The position numbers were made by a program, and so were the translations under genes. From positions 1 to 45,161 of the IMG/VR virus record IMGVR_UViG_3300008117_000083: 45,161 nt of DNA. One strand, 5' to 3'. The stretch is from a virus. The notes under the pieces were generated by a model. The model was not told the DNA's origin. It did not search any database and was given only the letters and a program-made list of their open reading frames with translations. Positions 1,206-35,270 of the stretch are shown here, one piece after another (position 1 is the stretch's first letter; every line of letters starts with the position of its first letter).

Positions 1206-2972
1206 TTAAAGTTCCGCATTAGCCTGTAAAGCAAAAAACAAAATAGCATTAGCAATCGCCGTAGAACGAACCGTAACACCCGTCGGGCTTTTCCTATCCA
1301 ATGTAGCAGTATAATTCCCTACACCCGGACGATGCGTCCAAAAAGAACCAGCATCAGCAACATTAAGATTCGTTGTATCCCAAGCAGCAAAATCAACTGT
1401 AGGTATTGCCCGCATTTCAACAGGAAACATAACACGCATTCCACCAACCGGAGCAGCATTAGTATTAAAATAAAACTCGCCTTGTTCCCTATTTGCGTCT
1501 ACGTTTCTAGCCCCAAAATATACGTTCTGAGGATAAGACTTATAAAAATACCTTTGACACTTACGAAGTGTAGTTTCAAAAGGCTCAAACTCAAAAGGAG
1601 TAGCAACACTACCCTGCTCTAACTGAACACCAGCAAGATAAAAAGTAGAATTAGAATTAGTCGCCCACTGAGTCTGTGTAGTGCGCTGCCATCCAATAGA
1701 CGACCAGTTAGCCCAATTAGAATTATACGTATCCGTACGCCTATCACTATGAGAACCAAGACCCCACTCAATATGCAAACCAACACCATTAGTAGTATTC
1801 CACGTACCAGAAACAGTAGCGGTTGCCAAACTAGTAGTAATAGTCTTAAACTCCCACGTATTCGCCGCATTAATCGTATAAGCAGCAACATAAACCCTAT
1901 CAGGAGTAGTAACCCCTAAATCCTTATTAGCAAAAGCAACACTATAAGTACCAGTAACACTTGATCGAACCCAAAAAGATAATGTAATCGACTTATTATA
2001 CAAGTCCGCAACATTATAGCCCTCAATTTTATGAGCAATACCAAGCCAGCCACCAGAATTAAACGTTAATCCAGCAACGCCAGTAACAACCCTAATACTA
2101 TTACTAAAACCACTTGGAACAATCGAAGTCTCGCGGCCTACAGTAAGAGAAGCCCCACTCCATGTATAATCCTTTACGTAAAAACGATCTACAGGATAAT
2201 AATTATTTCCTCCGCCAGAATTAAAAATAAAAGTGTTGCCTCTTTGCGCTACGCGAGCATCACCATTAATTATACGACTACGATTAGACTGATAATTAGC
2301 AATCTGATTACCCGTAACCGTAATAACATCACTACCACCCTCAGTATGACTAGCCGCATGAGCAACAGTACTAGGCTCAATCAAACCACTCGTAGTAGCC
2401 TTAATAATATACACAGGACTACCAGTCCCCGCAGCACTAATATTAGGAAGCGTAAACGTCGTAGAATTATCCCCCGTACCATACGTCGTACCAATAAGCG
2501 CAAACAAATCAGCAAATGAAGTACGACTAATATTAGAACCATCACAACGCAACCAACCAGTCGGATACGACGAAGTAACAGGCCATTGAACCATACTCCC
2601 CACAGGAGCACTAAGAAGACTAAGCGTACTCGTCACACCAACAGCAGTAGTAAACCGAATATAATAAGCACCAGTAGTAGCACTAATATTCGGAACCATA
2701 AAGTTTGTTCCCGGAGTGCCACCAAACGTAGTACCAATAACTGCTACAAGATTAGGATATGTACTATTAGTATAGGTTGCTCCGTTGCAGAGCACCCAAC
2801 CTGTAGGAGCAGTAGTTCCTGCGAACCACATGATACTACCAACGGGCATACTATCGTTAGAAGTCGTGGTAGTTGTTTTAAGATCCCATGCGGTACCATT
2901 GTACGCCCATGTGGTTGCGCCTGAGGTGAATTCTTGCCCATTTATAGGACTATTTGGAAAATCAATAGGCAT
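1206..2972 (-). CDS. Tail fibre with two collar modules and a C-terminal sugar-binding-type domain (588 aa)
   Basis: Domains in order: an N-terminal P-N-S-P-x-N-G-Q-E-F segment with a W-A-Y-N-G-T-A-W motif, a form common at fibre N-termini; a first collar module (PVGSIMWFAGTTAPTGWVLC, about 43-62); a second (PVGSMVQWPVTSSYPTGWLRC, about 123-143); an H-A-A-S-H-x-x-G-G-S-D motif near 210; then a long C-terminal domain starting R-I-I-N-G-D-A-R-V-A-Q-R-G near 234. That domain has S-F-W-V-R-S-S and ends with GVQLEQGSVATPFEFEPF and C-Q-R-Y-F-Y-K. This layout is known from phage fibre/tailspike proteins with jelly-roll carbohydrate-binding folds. The same C-terminal signature recurs in the 347-aa protein at 17154-18197. 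It probably binds a surface glycan. The ligand is not predictable. Confidence 0.85.
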   Translation of the reverse strand: MPIDFPNSPINGQEFTSGATTWAYNGTAWDLKTTTTTSNDSMPVGSIMWFAGTTAPTGWVLCNGATYTNSTYPNLVAVIGTTFGGTPGTNFMVPNISATTGAYYIRFTTAVGVTSTLSLLSAPVGSMVQWPVTSSYPTGWLRCDGSNISRTSFADLFALIGTTYGTGDNSTTFTLPNISAAGTGSPVYIIKATTSGLIEPSTVAHAASHTEGGSDVITVTGNQIANYQSNRSRIINGDARVAQRGNTFIFNSGGGNNYYPVDRFYVKDYTWSGASLTVGRETSIVPSGFSNSIRVVTGVAGLTFNSGGWLGIAHKIEGYNVADLYNKSITLSFWVRSSVTGTYSVAFANKDLGVTTPDRVYVAAYTINAANTWEFKTITTSLATATVSGTWNTTNGVGLHIEWGLGSHSDRRTDTYNSNWANWSSIGWQRTTQTQWATNSNSTFYLAGVQLEQGSVATPFEFEPFETTLRKCQRYFYKSYPQNVYFGARNVDANREQGEFYFNTNAAPVGGMRVMFPVEMRAIPTVDFAAWDTTNLNVADAGSFWTHRPGVGNYTATLDRKSPTGVTVRSTAIANAILFFALQANAEL

Positions 2973-2983
2973 AAATCACCTCC

Positions 2984-5035
2984 TCAAAGTTTAATAATAT
3001 AATTCGTAATAATTGTTGGTTGAATATTTCTATGCGCCCCGCTTCCGCCTGTAGCGCCAATAAAACTTGTATCAAGACCATAGTCATTTCCCCAACCATT
3101 TACATCCATATTCTGCGTCGTACCACGAGAACCGCCGTACTTTGGAATCCATTGGTGACTATGGCTCGGCATTTCTGCTACAGTTAGCGTATGTGTTTCT
3201 GCGCCTCCAGCAGCACCAAGACTTGTACCAGTAATACCAGAACCGCCAGAAGTAATACGATTTACAGCACTACCGCCCATGTTATCCCTGCCAGCAGGAA
3301 TACGTCCGCGCATATCAGGAATAATAAAACTAGAAGCGCCCGTGCCACCATAGGTAGTACCAATAGCCGTAAACAAACGCGCATAAGTAGTATCAGCCAC
3401 ACTATTAACCGTCTGTCCATAACAAAAAACCCAGCCAGTAGGCTCAGTAGTACCCGCATAAGGCATAAGAATGCCTGCAGGTAAGATCATATCAATTCCC
3501 GCTAAATGGGCAGTAAGATCAGTAACACTGCCAGCCCCACTAGCCGCACTATTCCGAGTATAATTAGTCGGAACGTAATCAACGGTCAAACGATCACCAT
3601 CAATAATATCACTACCACCACGAATATGCGTACCAGCATGACCCGGAATAGTAACCTGAGCATTCTCCCCAATCTCTACCCACTGATTAGAAGAACCATC
3701 AGCATAATAAATATACGTCTTACCATTAGAAGAATTATACCACAACGCGCCCGCCTGAGGACTAGCAGGAGCAGTATCACTCACCGTAGTACTAGCAGAA
3801 CCAAGTTGCTCCCAAGCAGAGCCAGTGCTACGATACAACAAGTAAGGCGCACTAGAACCAAACGCAAACAATGTACCAGCAGGATACAAGGTAAACGATG
3901 TAGGAAGCGTAGCGCCCTTAGCAATAATCTTAGTAAAATCAAGAGTATCGGTACCACCCGGAATATGCGTACTAGCATGAGCAGTAGGCGTACGAGCATC
4001 AGTTAAACGAGAATCACTAGTAATAACAGCCGTCCCAGTAACCTGACTAGGAGCAATCGTAATAGGATCGCTACCAGCACTACCATGCGTACTAGCATGA
4101 GCCGGAATATCATCCGCAGCAACATTCTCCCACACCTGAGTAGAAGAATTATACTTAATAATATCACCATTAGCAAGAGTACCAACATTAATACTCACAT
4201 TATGCAACTCTTGCAACTCAAACCCATTCACAACACTAATATACAAAACACCAAGACTAGCATGAGAACGAACACAAAACCCGACAAGCACCATATGATT
4301 AGGAGCACTAGGCTTAGTAGAAGTCAAATCACCCGCAGTAGTAGGCGACACATACACAGCCGCGCCCTCCGTAAGGGCTAGAGTATTAATATTAGACACA
4401 ATACCCTGAGTACAAACAAACCCCTTACTACCACCAGTAGCATCCTCAGCCATAACACCAAACGTCTTAGACGAAGTAGCCTCACTATTAGCCTGAGCAT
4501 ACCGCACCGTCTTATTCGTACCATCAGACCCAGCAACATACACAACCTTACCCTTAGTAAGACCAGTATTATCTGCGTGTTTAACAAGCGCAACATTCTC
4601 CTGACCAATATCAAGAGGAACATTACCGCCCTTAAGGATAAACTCTAACGTACCATTAGTATCATTCCACGCTAACTGGCCAACACCACTAGCGCCCGGA
4701 GTAACCGTATCAAAATCAAGATACGGAGTATTCTGATACACAAGATTAGCCGTATCCGTAATACCATGCACATTCGTCGTATCAGACGTATGATTATCCA
4801 ACTCTGCCTGCGTAGCCATATCCACCGCAAACGACGGATTAGGATAATTACCCGACAAAACACCACCCGCCGGACCAGTAGGAGTACCACCCCCACCAGA
4901 CGCGCCCTCCAAACCAAGATTAAGAACCTGACGAGCATAAGAGTTAATCTCATTCTTAATACTAAACGTAATCCACTTTTGAAAATCCTGTTTCCCACGC
5001 TCAGTAGTAAGATCAAACGTAGGCATACCAAGCAT
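2984..5035 (-). CDS. Long tail fibre with H-A-x-T-H repeats and C-terminal collar domain (683 aa)
   Basis: This is probably the main fibre shaft. The N-terminus (MPTFDLTTERGKQDFQKWI) has an amphipathic alpha segment ending in Gly-rich S-G-G-G-G-T-P-T-G-P-A-G-G, then a beta-rich part with an I-G-Q-E-N-V-A-L-V-K-H-A-D-N-T-G module at about 140-260. Three repeats of the form H-A-(S/G)-T-H-x-x-G-(S/G)-(S/T)-D lie near residues 312, 353 and 466. The collar module PAGILMPYAGTTEPTGWVFC is at about 519-538, followed by F-I-I-P-D-M-R-G-R-I-P-A-G-R and a final QPTIITNYIIKL. Its ATG at 5035 overlaps the stop of the upstream 1014-aa gene (TAATG), so the two are probably translationally coupled. A second ATG three codons in is also possible. 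Confidence 0.85.
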   Translation of the reverse strand: MLGMPTFDLTTERGKQDFQKWITFSIKNEINSYARQVLNLGLEGASGGGGTPTGPAGGVLSGNYPNPSFAVDMATQAELDNHTSDTTNVHGITDTANLVYQNTPYLDFDTVTPGASGVGQLAWNDTNGTLEFILKGGNVPLDIGQENVALVKHADNTGLTKGKVVYVAGSDGTNKTVRYAQANSEATSSKTFGVMAEDATGGSKGFVCTQGIVSNINTLALTEGAAVYVSPTTAGDLTSTKPSAPNHMVLVGFCVRSHASLGVLYISVVNGFELQELHNVSINVGTLANGDIIKYNSSTQVWENVAADDIPAHASTHGSAGSDPITIAPSQVTGTAVITSDSRLTDARTPTAHASTHIPGGTDTLDFTKIIAKGATLPTSFTLYPAGTLFAFGSSAPYLLYRSTGSAWEQLGSASTTVSDTAPASPQAGALWYNSSNGKTYIYYADGSSNQWVEIGENAQVTIPGHAGTHIRGGSDIIDGDRLTVDYVPTNYTRNSAASGAGSVTDLTAHLAGIDMILPAGILMPYAGTTEPTGWVFCYGQTVNSVADTTYARLFTAIGTTYGGTGASSFIIPDMRGRIPAGRDNMGGSAVNRITSGGSGITGTSLGAAGGAETHTLTVAEMPSHSHQWIPKYGGSRGTTQNMDVNGWGNDYGLDTSFIGATGGSGAHRNIQPTIITNYIIKL

Positions 5036-25869: not shown

Positions 25870-26165
25870 TGTGGGTTGGTGAGTACGATAAGCAGACCAT
25901 TGCTTGTCATATGAGTGTCGTCTTTGAGAATCTTGGTACGGTTAATCGTGCTCTTGAAGAGTATGTTGATCGTGACAAGGATTATGCTATCCTTGATCGT
26001 CTGATGGAGCAGGCTTTTCACAGGTTGGAAGAGATTGAGGATATTCTTGATCTTTGGAAGAAGCCGGGGTTTACGTGGGCTAGCCTTGATCGTGGACAAT
26101 TCGATTCGCTGAAGCGTTGTGATTGTCCTGATTGTCGTGAAGATTCTAGTTATAGGATGGATTAG
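25869..26165 (+). CDS. Unknown helical protein with CxCxxC (98 aa)
   Basis: ATG 25869 overlaps the preceding stop (TAATG). Helical (T-V-N-R-A-L-E-E-Y-V-D-R-D-K-D-Y-A-I-L-D-R-L) with a C-terminal C-D-C-P-D-C-R that could hold metal. Between the annealing protein and dUTPase, so part of DNA metabolism by context. Its stop region overlaps the dUTPase GTG. No family recognised. Confidence 0.65.
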   Translation: MWVGEYDKQTIACHMSVVFENLGTVNRALEEYVDRDKDYAILDRLMEQAFHRLEEIEDILDLWKKPGFTWASLDRGQFDSLKRCDCPDCREDSSYRMD

Positions 26166-26581
26166 TGGAAGTAAAGTATGACACGATGAAGTTTCACCCC
26201 AAGCGTATGTATGGTAGTGATGCTGCTTGGGATCTTTACGCACTAGAGGATGCTATTATTCCTGCTAGTGGGTGGAAGATTGTTGATACTGGTCTTCGCA
26301 TTGATATCCCGCACGGGTATGCTGGACTAGTGCTCAGCCGCAGTGGACTTGCAAGTCGGGGGGTTTATGTGCTAAACTCTCCCGGACTGATTGATGCGGG
26401 GTACATTGGTTCGATCCGTATCATTCTGGCGAACATGATGGAATTCAACGATTATGAGGTTAAAGAGTCTGATCGTATTGCTCAACTGATGATCGTACGA
26501 GTGGAGGACATTACACTCGCCCCCGGTATTTTTGCTGGGGGTGCTCGCGGAGAGGGCGGCTTTGGGTCTACTGGCAATTGA
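26165..26581 (+). CDS. dut: dUTPase (138 aa)
   Basis: All five trimeric dUTPase motifs are visible: D-A-A-W-D-L-Y-A (19-26), S-R-S-G-L-A-S-R-G, G-L-I-D-A-G-Y-I-G with the catalytic Asp, D-R-I-A-Q-L-M-I, and R-G-E-G-G-F-G-S-T-G at the C-terminus that closes over the substrate. It converts dUTP to dUMP, keeping uracil out of phage DNA and feeding dTMP synthesis. GTG 26165 overlaps the preceding gene. Its 3' end overlaps the polymerase start. Complete and normal in length. Confidence 0.93.
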   Translation: MEVKYDTMKFHPKRMYGSDAAWDLYALEDAIIPASGWKIVDTGLRIDIPHGYAGLVLSRSGLASRGVYVLNSPGLIDAGYIGSIRIILANMMEFNDYEVKESDRIAQLMIVRVEDITLAPGIFAGGARGEGGFGSTGN

Positions 26582-27497
26582 TACTGAGACGACTGGTGTT
26601 GGCTGGCACGACCAAGCCTTTATGGTCAGTGTTGCAACAGACACAGAAACACTAGTGTTTGATAAGCGCAACACAAGTGGTACGCAATGGCAAGACGATC
26701 TGCTTCGTGTTAATCGTATGCTGCACGAGGCTACGCATATCATTATGCATAATGCTAAGTTTGATTTGCAGAAACTTATCAGCATTGGTTTTGACAGTTA
26801 CCTGTTCGCCACAAAGTTTGAGGACACGCAAGCCATTGCGCATCTTATTGATGAGAAGCAGAGCACTAGCCTAAAGTATCTTGCGCGGGTTGTGCTTGGA
26901 GAGGAGACGGATGAGGATGAGGTTCTGAAGGTTTGGCGGCGCAAGAATAAACTTAAGAAGGAGGATGGTTATGAGCCTATCCCCAATGAGATTCTTGCTC
27001 CTTACGCAGCCAAGGACGCGGAGTTTACTCTGCGACTATACAAGACGCTATGGCCTCGCCTGCCCAAGGACCTGCACGACCTGTACAATATGGAGAAGTC
27101 GCTTACATGGGCGCTACTCAACGTCGAAGCGCAAGGCATGAGCATTGATAAGGCGTATGTTACTGACAAGAGAAGGGAGTATGGTGATCGGATTTACAAA
27201 CTTAAGCAGCGTATTGGGGAACTGGTTGGCAAGGAATTCAACCCCCAATCACATCAACAGGTTCTACACGCACTCAGCGAAAGAGGATTCGTGGTATCCT
27301 CTACCTCCAAAGACGCGCTCAGGGAAGTGGACGACGAACTCGCACGACTAATTCTAGAACTCCGCGAGTGTAACAAAATCAAAGCAACGTACTTTGATGC
27401 CTTGCATGAGGAGGCTAGGGATGGTATACTCCACCCGAACTTTCGTCAGCATGGTACAAGGACTGGTCGTATGAGCAGTGGAGCCGCCGAAGCGTGA
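26562..27497 (+). CDS. Family-A DNA polymerase, N-terminal half (3'-5' exonuclease and thumb; about 311 aa)
   Basis: Exo I L-L-A-I-D-T-E-T (3-10), Exo II H-N-A-K-F-D (63-68) and Exo III Y-A-A-K-D-A-E-F (148-155) show a complete proofreading domain. The thumb follows (M-E-K-S-L-T-W-A-L-L-N-V-E-A-Q-G-M-S-I-D). The protein runs to the conserved G-T-R-T-G-R-M-S-S, then stops after five more residues (GAAEA), where an intact polymerase would read P-N-x-Q-N-I-P. The rest is encoded separately at 27664-28404. I favour a TTG start at 26562 behind GGAGAGGG. GTG 26541 and TTG 26532 are alternatives. The two halves must associate to give an active enzyme if this phage replicates with it. Confidence 0.85.
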   Translation: MGLLAIDTETTGVGWHDQAFMVSVATDTETLVFDKRNTSGTQWQDDLLRVNRMLHEATHIIMHNAKFDLQKLISIGFDSYLFATKFEDTQAIAHLIDEKQSTSLKYLARVVLGEETDEDEVLKVWRRKNKLKKEDGYEPIPNEILAPYAAKDAEFTLRLYKTLWPRLPKDLHDLYNMEKSLTWALLNVEAQGMSIDKAYVTDKRREYGDRIYKLKQRIGELVGKEFNPQSHQQVLHALSERGFVVSSTSKDALREVDDELARLILELRECNKIKATYFDALHEEARDGILHPNFRQHGTRTGRMSSGAAEA

Positions 27498-27667
27498 TGA
27501 GTTATCATCATTGGGATGAGGAGGAAGAGGAGGAATGGTCGTGGTATTACGTCTCCATGTATCATCCCGAATACTTGATTCCGATTGCGACTGACTGGCC
27601 AGTATGTGCCGCAGGATTTGAGCAAGCAATGGACGTATACACACTACTACTGAAACTATCTAAATGA
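27497..27667 (+). CDS. Small protein between the two polymerase halves (56 aa)
   Basis: ATG 27497 overlaps the TGA of the N-terminal polymerase half (TGATG). Its own TGA overlaps the ATG of the C-terminal half (ATGA). It begins M-S-Y-H-H-W-D and has E-E-E-E-E-E-W-S-W-Y-Y, then H-P-E-Y-L-I-P-I-A-T-D-W-P-V-C-A-A-G-F-E-Q-A-M-D and an L-L-L-K-L-S-K end. Codons look like those of the flanking polymerase parts. It is too short for an intein, intron-encoded endonuclease or self-splicing intron. It may be an assembly factor or a relic of an insertion. No family recognised. Confidence 0.7.
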   Translation: MSYHHWDEEEEEEWSWYYVSMYHPEYLIPIATDWPVCAAGFEQAMDVYTLLLKLSK

Positions 27668-28404
27668 ACGTACAGAATATTCCAAGAACACAAAAGGATG
27701 TGAAACGTGCATTTATCCCAAAGAATGATGCGTTCCTTTTTTTCGACTACAAGGCTATCGAAGTACGGCTACTCGCGTACTACCTCGCCATTGGCATCAA
27801 TGACACTAGTCTTGTCGAAGAGATTCGTAACGGACTGGACCCGCACTATGAGACTGCCAAAGGACTATTCAACAAGAGTGACATCACTGACGAGGAGCGG
27901 CAAGTAGGTAAGACGCTGAACTTTAGCATCATCTATGGTGGTGGGACGCCTACGATTATGCGACAGTTGGGCGTTGACTACAAGGAAGCAAAGCGATTGT
28001 TGGAGGCGTATCATGGAACTAGGCCGGGCATTGCTCTTCTTAGGAACAGCATTGATCGTATTCTGGATAGTAGAGGTTACATTATTAATAGTCACGGCAG
28101 GCATCTTCATGTGGAGGAATCGCACAAAGCCCTAAACGCTCTTATCCAAGGCAGTGCTGCGGATATTATGCGCGAGGCCGTGGTTCGTGTAGCCGCCAAG
28201 TTGGAGCACTACCAGACACACATTGTCAACATCATTCACGACGAGATTATGTTGGATGCTAACACGAGTGAAATGCCGATCATGGTGTACACTATTCCAA
28301 GCCTGATGAAGCCTAGCGAGATTGATAAGGTCATCCCGATTGAGGTTGACTGTGAAGTATCTTATACGAATTGGGCTGAGAAGGAGGAGTATCATGGCAA
28401 TTGA
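27664..28404 (+). CDS. Family-A DNA polymerase, C-terminal half (palm and fingers; 246 aa)
   Basis: Starts M-N-V-Q-N-I-P-R, exactly where the N-terminal half is lost. Motif A is D-Y-K-A-I-E-V-R (28-35), motif B R-Q-V-G-K-T-L-N-F-S-I-I-Y-G-G (79-93; Lys83, Phe87, Tyr91) and motif C I-I-H-D-E (190-194), so all catalytic residues for strand synthesis are present. Phe at the O-helix position fits the Phe762 type of phage polymerases. It is coupled to the 56-aa gene by ATGA and overlaps the next start by 11 bases. Full catalytic function probably needs the partner with thumb and exonuclease. Confidence 0.88.
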   Translation: MNVQNIPRTQKDVKRAFIPKNDAFLFFDYKAIEVRLLAYYLAIGINDTSLVEEIRNGLDPHYETAKGLFNKSDITDEERQVGKTLNFSIIYGGGTPTIMRQLGVDYKEAKRLLEAYHGTRPGIALLRNSIDRILDSRGYIINSHGRHLHVEESHKALNALIQGSAADIMREAVVRVAAKLEHYQTHIVNIIHDEIMLDANTSEMPIMVYTIPSLMKPSEIDKVIPIEVDCEVSYTNWAEKEEYHGN

Positions 28405-33250: not shown

Positions 33251-33256
33251 TATAAT

Positions 33257-33338
33257 GGGGCTGTGGCGGAATTGGTATACGCAGCAGACTTAAAATCTGT
33301 AGCCTACGGGCATGAGGGTTCGACTCCCTCCAGCCCTA
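33257..33338 (+). tRNA. tRNA-Leu (anticodon UAA)
   Basis: Class II tRNA with acceptor GGGGCTG/CAGCCCT, anticodon stem GCAGA/TCTGT and loop CTTAAAA (anticodon TAA, reads UUA), long variable arm, and T-arm GAGGG-TTCGACT-CCCTC. Discriminator A, no CCA encoded. It sits just before the reductase gene and is probably cut from the long transcript. Confidence 0.92.
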
Positions 33339-33356
33339 TCTATCGAAAGGAGAAGA

Positions 33357-35270
33357 ATGAGTCTACCAACTGATTATCAGACGTTTATTGCAACGTCTCG
33401 TTATGCTCGCTGGCTTGATGATGAGAAGCGGCGAGAGTACTGGCCTGAGACTGTCAGCCGGTACATTGAGTTTATGGATCAGAGTCTTCGTGAGAAGCAT
33501 AATTATAAGATGGATGCTGTACTGAAGGCAGAATTGCTAGACGCTATCATTAATCTAGAGGTTATGCCTAGTATGCGAGCATTGATGACTGCTGGTCCTG
33601 CTCTGGCTCGTGAGAACGTGGCTGGGTATAATTGTTCGTATACGCCTATCAATCATCCTCGCTGTTTTGATGAGGTACTTTACATTCTTATGAATGGTGT
33701 TGGTGTAGGGTTCAGCGTTGAGCGAGACGACATTAACCAGTTGCCTATCGTGAATGAGCATTTTGAGAAGAGCACTACCGTTATTCATGTGGCAGACTCT
33801 AAGGCTGGTTGGGCTAGGGCCTTGCGAGAGTTGATTAGCCTGCTCTATGCTGGTCAGATTCCATCGTGGGATATGAGTGCTGTTCGTCCCGCTGGTAGTC
33901 GCCTCAAGACTTTTGGTGGCAGGGCTAGTGGTCCTGCTCCGCTAGAGGACTTGTTTAAGTTTGTTGTCAATGTGTTCCAGAATGCTGCTGGACGTAAACT
34001 ATACGCGGTGGAGTGTCATGATCTTGTCTGTAAGATTGCGGAAGTGGTGGTTGTGGGTGGGGTTCGCCGTAGCGCCCTCATCAGTCTGTCTAACCTATCG
34101 GACGGAAGGATGCGTAACGCTAAGTCTGGAGAGTGGTGGACAGATAATCCTCAACGTGCGCTTGCAAATAATTCCGTCGCGTACTCTGAGACACCCGGTA
34201 TGGATGCGTTCATGGAGGAATGGTTGAGCCTCTACCAATCCAAGAGTGGTGAGCGGGGTATCTTTAATCGTGAGGCTGCCCAGAAGCAAGCCGCTAAGAA
34301 TGGACGAAGGGAGTACGACCATCCGTTTGGTACTAATCCATGCTCTGAGATTATTCTTCGCCCGCACCAGTTTTGTAATCTTACTGAGGTTGTGGTTCGT
34401 GCAGAGGATGACTTTGATTCACTTAAGCGTAAGGTACGGTTGGCTACGATCCTTGGGACGTTCCAATCTACTCTTACGGATTTCAAGTATCTGCGTAAGG
34501 TGTGGAAGCAGAACACGGAGGAGGAGCGTCTGCTCGGCGTGTCGCTTACGGGCATCTTCGATAACAAGATTATGGTAGGTAAGGGATCGTATCAGGTTGG
34601 TCCTAACTTGCGGGAAATGCGACAGGAAGCGGTGATGACTAATGCAAAGTATGCTAAGCAGATTGGTATTCCTCAGTCTACTGCCATCACTTGCGTCAAG
34701 CCTAGTGGTACTGTCTCTCAATTGGTGGACTCCGCTAGCGGCATTCATCCTCGTTATGCTGAGTATTATATCCGTCGTGTGCGCGGAGATATCAAGGATC
34801 CGTTGACGCAATTCCTTATGGATTCTGGTGTGCCTCACGAGCCTGACGTTATGAATCCTGATAATATGATGGTGTTCTCGTTCCCACAAAAGTCTCCTAG
34901 TAAGGTTACTAATCTTACGGCTATTGAGCATCTAGAGTTGTGGCTAGCCTATCAGGAGAATTGGTGTGAGCATAAGCCTAGTATTACTGTTAGTGTTGCT
35001 GAGGATGAGTGGATGAAGGTTGGTGCTTGGGTGTATGATCATTTTGATGAGGTGAGTGGTATCTCGTTCTTGCCTAAGAGTGATCATACGTATCGTCAGG
35101 CTCCTTATGAGACTATTACGAAGGATGAGTATGAGGCTCTTGTGAAGGAGTCTCCTAAGCAGATTGATTGGGCTAGGCTTAGCGAGTACGAGTTGGAGGA
35201 TAATACTGAGTCGTCTCAGACGTTTGCTTGTACGAGTGATGCTTGTGAGGTTGTCGATATTAAAGGCTAG
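33357..35270 (+). CDS. Class II (B12-dependent) ribonucleoside triphosphate reductase, monomeric type (637 aa)
   Basis: Active-site residues: Cys93 in G-Y-N-C-S-Y, T-N-P-C-S-E-I with radical Cys at 329, and Cys340 in Q-F-C-N-L, the second redox thiol. The C-terminal tail has C625-x4-C630 (F-A-C-T-S-D-A-C-E), the redox pair served by thioredoxin-like partners. This is the adenosylcobalamin-dependent RTPR type of Lactobacillus leichmannii. It makes dNTPs from host NTPs without oxygen or iron and needs cobalamin from the cell. ATG 33357 follows AAAGGAG; an upstream ATG falls inside the tRNA. Confidence 0.92.
   Translation: MSLPTDYQTFIATSRYARWLDDEKRREYWPETVSRYIEFMDQSLREKHNYKMDAVLKAELLDAIINLEVMPSMRALMTAGPALARENVAGYNCSYTPINHPRCFDEVLYILMNGVGVGFSVERDDINQLPIVNEHFEKSTTVIHVADSKAGWARALRELISLLYAGQIPSWDMSAVRPAGSRLKTFGGRASGPAPLEDLFKFVVNVFQNAAGRKLYAVECHDLVCKIAEVVVVGGVRRSALISLSNLSDGRMRNAKSGEWWTDNPQRALANNSVAYSETPGMDAFMEEWLSLYQSKSGERGIFNREAAQKQAAKNGRREYDHPFGTNPCSEIILRPHQFCNLTEVVVRAEDDFDSLKRKVRLATILGTFQSTLTDFKYLRKVWKQNTEEERLLGVSLTGIFDNKIMVGKGSYQVGPNLREMRQEAVMTNAKYAKQIGIPQSTAITCVKPSGTVSQLVDSASGIHPRYAEYYIRRVRGDIKDPLTQFLMDSGVPHEPDVMNPDNMMVFSFPQKSPSKVTNLTAIEHLELWLAYQENWCEHKPSITVSVAEDEWMKVGAWVYDHFDEVSGISFLPKSDHTYRQAPYETITKDEYEALVKESPKQIDWARLSEYELEDNTESSQTFACTSDACEVVDIKG

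Follow-up and report, generated by a model that had tools for sequence, protein, structure and literature searches.

A family-A DNA polymerase encoded in two genes, with one break point in the palm across a clade of metagenomic phages and changing gene cassettes at the joint

The window, that is, the whole stretch of 45,161 nucleotides analyzed here (IMG/VR virus record IMGVR_UViG_3300008117_000083), bears two genes for one family-A DNA polymerase, an N-half at 26562–27497 and a C-half at 27664–28404, which enclose a small frame termed S in the following. The N frame ends with ...RTGRMSSGAAEA and the stop codon TGA at 27495–27497, S runs from ATG 27497 to TGA 27667 (56 aa, or 57 aa if the overlapping GTG at 27494 is the start), and the C frame extends from ATG 27664 (MNVQNIPR) to 28404. 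The arrangement of a family-A polymerase in two genes around a 56-codon frame, as proposed in a first-pass annotation, is borne out by frames, Pfam matches and relatives, and the TGATG and ATGA joints agree exactly with the earlier description. DNA_pol_A_exo1 (PF01612) and the start of DNA_pol_A (PF00476, profile positions 3–123 of 381) match the N-half and PF00476 positions 127–381 the C-half, both profiles being matched in order and covered jointly by the two genes, while the window's S frame gave no match in Pfam or PHROG. As to the N part, the split itself stood, whereas its start had been placed at 26532 and is probably TTG 26562, since the start is conserved in relatives 3–6 codons before AIDTETTG. 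The features of the locus are as follows.

26165–26581, + strand: dUTPase-like gene upstream, its 3' end overlapping the N-half start (sequence motif only)
26562–27497, + strand: N-half of the family-A polymerase (3'-5' exonuclease, thumb, first palm strand; ends TGRMSSGAAEA and stop; PF01612 and first third of PF00476), start probable
26580–26597, + strand: Exo I motif DTETTG, invariant in alignment A2
26748–26765, + strand: Exo II motif HNAKFD, invariant in A2
27003–27017, + strand: Exo III motif YAAKD (Y148 and D152 invariant)
27462–27479, + strand: TGRMSS, last conserved element of the N-half, its Arg being the Klenow R668 equivalent (Klenow alignment to chain position 349)
27495–27499, + strand: TGATG stop/start overlap joining N-half and S (or GTGA at 27494–27497); from the sequence, ATGA-type joints also occurring in relatives
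27497–27667, + strand: S gene for an acidic 56-aa protein, cargo in the split, conserved in relatives at the polymerase split only
27664–27667, + strand: ATGA overlap joining S and C-half, from the sequence
27664–28404, + strand: C-half of the family-A polymerase (fingers, catalytic palm; starts MNVQNIPR; PF00476 127–381)
27745–27762, + strand: motif A DYKAIE with the catalytic Asp (D28 and E33 invariant, including the deeper alignment A5)
27898–27939, + strand: motif B / O-helix RQVGKTLNFSIIYG (R79, K83 and N86–G92 invariant in A5)
28237–28245, + strand: motif C HDE with the second catalytic Asp (H192 and D193 invariant in A5, E194 in A1)

Exonuclease and polymerase motifs had been described as intact, and all of them are indeed present and conserved across the alignments of relatives, with the catalytic Asp residues of motifs A and C, the Arg and Lys of the O-helix and the Exo I–III residues forming invariant columns (A1, A2, and A5). 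When aligned to intact PolA proteins, each half maps onto its own part of Klenow without overlap, the N-half covering chain positions 159–349 and the C-half 352–585 in sequence profiles. The break corresponds to Klenow chain positions 350–351, about residues 673–674 (numbering by adding 323), where the Klenow turn reads S-S-T-D-P-N. The AF2 model of the C-half (pLDDT 92) superimposes on residues 621–876 of Bst Pol I with a Z score of 26.4 and an rmsd of 1.6 over 234 residues. For the N-half model (pLDDT 89), alignments were obtained with Klenow and with phiVC8 DpoZ (Z 20.4), the high rmsd of 7.6 over 292 residues in the latter case being probably due to domain orientation. DpoZ (7pbk) and the Klenow/Bst DNA polymerases I have the same fold, domain order and conserved motifs, but are single uninterrupted chains at about 21–32% identity. 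The last 13 residues of the N-half, including TGRMSS, show pLDDT values below 50 and are predicted to be disordered in the chain alone; as the TGRMSS stretch sits in the palm of the intact polymerase, assembly would be expected to order this tail.

The same split is found in related phages, all of them metagenomic. Querying IMG/VR with the C-half resulted in 34 loci, the patterns used sitting within the C-half and thus not selecting for a split, and a profile search added six close loci, five of them with the junction in view. All 37 loci showing the junction (60–79% identity; several are near-duplicates, with 26 different N-halves at a threshold of 97% codon identity) have an N-half stop a short way past TGRMSSG and a C-half starting with (M/V/I)NVQNIPR. 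Seven deeper relatives (about 37–48% identity), obtained by profile searches with the N-half and a broader C-half alignment, are cut at the same place. The same cut in every relative examined argues against a split due to chance. Close relatives with an intact polymerase, which the first-pass annotation had regarded as potential counterevidence, were not encountered, uninterrupted polymerases appearing only outside the split clade, with identities of about 36% or less (L182, L184, L127, and others). In a maximum-likelihood tree, a branch with 100/100 support separates the 19 split polymerases from 12 uninterrupted ones and from that of the OM43 phage MEP401, the internal order of this outgroup not being trustworthy because of its long branches. 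Both halves are under purifying selection, with median dN/dS values of 0.15 (N-half) and 0.11 (C-half) by a simple Nei-Gojobori estimate excluding saturated pairs. Moreover, five loci lack any insert, the N-half stop directly overlapping the C-half start as ATGA or GTGA (L018, L019, L026, and L027) or as TGATG (L179). By sequence comparison, the split is hence neither private to the window genome nor a decaying remnant, and the fission looks old, clade-wide and of single origin.

Among phage isolates, a DNA search gave no match, and protein searches returned only polymerases below 60% identity, with single-piece matches in a sample of 60 records. A search of GTDB genomes gave one distant match only and identified no host. 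Synonymous variation in the last two codons of the N-half is low (0.16–0.17 versus a mean of 0.46), which raised the possibility of a special conserved RNA signal at this 3' end; as some other positions vary as little, this idea was dropped, leaving the ATGA joint as the only feature put forward here. The nearly invariant TGRMSS reads KGRRFSA at the N-half end in the L122–L124 branch. Unusual C-half starts are apparent in L126 (ATT at 4909, after a TAG), L125 (ACG at about 5459, behind a strong AAAGGAGG) and L009 (ATT at the usual start point, 4001, with an in-frame ATG nine codons upstream). Apparent frame breaks, either sequencing errors or real decay, are located just past the C-half start in L180 (one base, about 2997–3003) and inside the C-half in L124 (5469–5566). 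Due to these odd starts and breaks, C-half translation may differ in some lineages.

The content of the gap between the halves varies by phage, comprising S, a GT2 glycosyltransferase (255–258 aa, PF00535), HNH-type endonucleases, SLOG/DprA-like proteins, a carbamoyltransferase or unknown small frames. The endonuclease cargo consists of HNH or Endonuclease VII genes, plus matches to PHROG 5046 ('HNH endonuclease'), and is present at the break in three lineages (L009, L124, and L180), one such gene lying directly before the C-half in each. A 310-aa gene resembling aspartate/ornithine carbamoyltransferases (PF02729, PF00185) is inserted in L126 at 3981–4913. In a distant branch, the break is occupied by SLOG/DprA-like genes of about 160 aa (L122 at 2805–3293, L123, L124, and L125). 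Cassette gain and loss can be followed between close relatives. The insert-free L018 and the glycosyltransferase-bearing L011 are one 764-bp cassette apart, with GCATGA repeats at its bounds and flanks of mostly 91–93% identity (falling to 84% in the 3' part of the N-half). L006 and L009 (94%) are two cassettes apart, of about 1.04 and 0.27 kb. Mapped onto the polymerase tree, the distributions of S and the glycosyltransferase each imply at least six changes. As judged from these comparisons, the gap is a cargo site with cassettes gained and lost between relatives 91–94% identical in flanking DNA.

A search for relatives of the 56-aa protein was successful at the same site of related loci, whereas Pfam, PHROG and phage isolates yielded none. 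The alignments indicate that S is a conserved protein family, acidic and of 54–65 aa, with the pattern W..Y.VSM...PWPVFA.SF..AM..Y..L. In the records searched, it is seen only at the polymerase split, directly preceding the C-half wherever present, with L009 as the one exception. It is missing from 11 of the 20 records searched whole, which may be incomplete but in several cases have near-genome lengths of 38–46 kb, and all 11 have the same split. With a median dN/dS of 0.33 (11 sequences including that of the window; 0.09–0.21 in the six closest pairs), S diverges faster than the polymerase halves and is under weaker constraint. Being one of several interchangeable cargoes, this conserved family lends no support to the frozen remnant of an insertion considered in the first-pass annotation, and an accessory role in the phages carrying it is possible. 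Comparison of S with solved structures gave no significant match. Two relatives of S score 14.2 and 15.0 bits against PF16857 (T7 Gp2-like RNA polymerase inhibitors), below the Pfam cut-off of 27, and the window copy gives no match to this profile. With hhalign, the probability is 57 over a 17-column strand-helix motif only, at a score of 25.1 versus a maximum of 15.7 in 100 column shuffles. The resemblance of S to T7 Gp2 is confined to this short motif and was taken as a lead only, not as homology.

These findings are very probably explained by a replicative phage polymerase of family A composed of two subunits, whose gene was split a single time, in the ancestor of the clade, and whose joint later became a cargo site. 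Of the readings offered initially, that of a functional split polymerase has good comparative support, given the clade-fixed break, constrained halves, complete motifs and insert-free genomes. Proofreading exonuclease, thumb and first palm strand, including the Arg that contacts the primer (equivalent to Klenow R668), would be provided by the N-subunit. The C-subunit would supply the fingers and the remaining palm, and with them both catalytic Asp residues. Following sequential translation by termination-reinitiation, as suggested by the anatomy of the ATGA/TGATG overlaps, the N-subunit tail would fold onto the palm of the C-subunit, and the assembled chains would form one polymerase presumably active in phage replication. 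As a dispensable stop/start joint, the junction may since have taken up and shed cassettes of passenger genes, the window's 56-codon S being one of these and presumably carried passively. A further-reaching idea, which we consider rather doubtful, is that the fixed joint in a replicative polymerase is now a dedicated slot for gene exchange, where passenger genes, carried along with essential subunits that are coupled in translation, might modulate the polymerase or the takeover of the host, S being a regulator of the polymerase or of host RNA polymerase.

An obvious alternative is that S is a needed third, structural subunit bridging the break, in line with its constraint and its exclusive position directly before the C-half (except in L009). 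Yet its absence from more than half of the wholly searched records with the same split means that it is not obligatory, so the small third subunit formerly suggested finds no support as a general feature; considering also the six changes of S on the polymerase tree and its faster divergence, we regard such a bridging role as improbable. Restoration of a single polypeptide by intron splicing, by an intein or by translational bypassing has to be considered as well, because the conserved TGR...NxQNIP core is a typical target and endonuclease genes are found at the break in three lineages. In addition, group I introns occur in DNA polymerase genes of other phages (PMC10580990). However, each insert is a coding cassette that brings overlapping start and stop codons of its own, and five loci have no insert but just overlapping stop and start codons. 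To our knowledge, 56 codons are also fewer than in any known intein. Rfam introns were detected neither in the window nor in 16 close and seven deeper loci, and insertion of a group I or II intron was discarded for this reason and because of the insert-free members. Together with the clade-wide identical cut, the latter mean that splicing, inteins or sequencing errors cannot explain the clade, leaving restoration of one chain extremely improbable.

Scarcely more credible is a programmed -1 frameshift fusing the N-half to the next frame, with the ATGA overlap as frameshift site. Where there is no insert, shifting by -1 behind GCA would indeed lead into the C-half frame, but inspection of the sequence revealed no slippery heptamer at the joint, the same shift would join the N-half to the glycosyltransferase or S in cargo loci, and the L179 joint is TGATG instead. 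A different matter is the origin of the break, which a homing endonuclease may have caused before being replaced by other cargo. This would be compatible with the two-subunit polymerase and is suggested by the HNH, Endonuclease VII or PHROG 'HNH endonuclease' genes directly before the C-half in L009, L124, and L180, by the position of the break in a highly conserved coding stretch and by the precedent proposed for Aeh1 nrdA (PMC2988022). As most split members have no endonuclease at the break, and an endonuclease could have entered an already split gene, as noted for Aeromonas phage 25 (PMC2988022), we hold this origin to be conceivable, though slightly the less probable course.

Split polymerases are already known from T4-like phages (PolB) and from the OM43 phages MEP401 and MEP402 (PolA), the family-A break described here being at another point. 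In MEP401/402 (OP830906, OP830907), a small ORF of unknown function lies between the halves of a split PolA (PMC10580990). Like in the window, one gene encodes the exonuclease and the N-terminal polymerase part and the other the C-terminal polymerase part. However, the cut is about 16–20 residues further downstream, after ...SPNLQNFDGEIKTLFLSRYGE and before motif A, with MEP401 gp13 continuing through PNLQNFDGEIKTLFLSRYGE where the window N-half stops after TGRMSSGAAEA, and the ORF between the halves (77 aa) is unrelated to S. In the tree, MEP401 is placed among uninterrupted polymerases outside the split clade, its exact place being unsure due to a long branch. A MEP401-type split at the same residue and of common origin was consequently rejected. 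In the accessible parts of PMC10580990, an intron is considered and left open by the authors, and insert-free relatives of MEP401/402 are not described. The T4-like Aeromonas phages 25 and 44RR also have their replicative polymerase in two genes, but gp43A/gp43B belong to family B, are broken elsewhere and are separated by a Seg endonuclease gene or untranslated sequence; gp43A and gp43B of phage 25 co-purify and show polymerase activity (reviewed in PMC2988022). Similarly, NrdA of phage Aeh1 is an essential enzyme whose critical region is interrupted and which still functions as separate chains, in this case a ribonucleotide reductase with the homing endonuclease MobE as insert (PMC2988022). 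An earlier report of the present break point or clade was not found in the literature searched, a limited search with few subscription journals.

Since the cut is precise, lies in the primer-binding palm and occurs naturally both with and without inserts, the clade allows a direct test of protein complementation at a polymerase active site, and it could also be a source of split polymerases for biotechnology. The locus also illustrates how a broken essential gene can turn into a landing site for passenger genes. For the small ORF between the OM43 polymerase halves, it provides a parallel in which a small ORF would be dispensable cargo and not an intron.

A tmRNA match (Rfam RF00023) is located upstream in a related phage contig (L029, 150–232). 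In the window, a tRNA-Leu gene (33256–33340) directly precedes a ribonucleotide reductase gene (33348–35270, PHROG 367), and since the program-assigned ORF start (33312) falls within this tRNA, the start of the reductase is probably further downstream.
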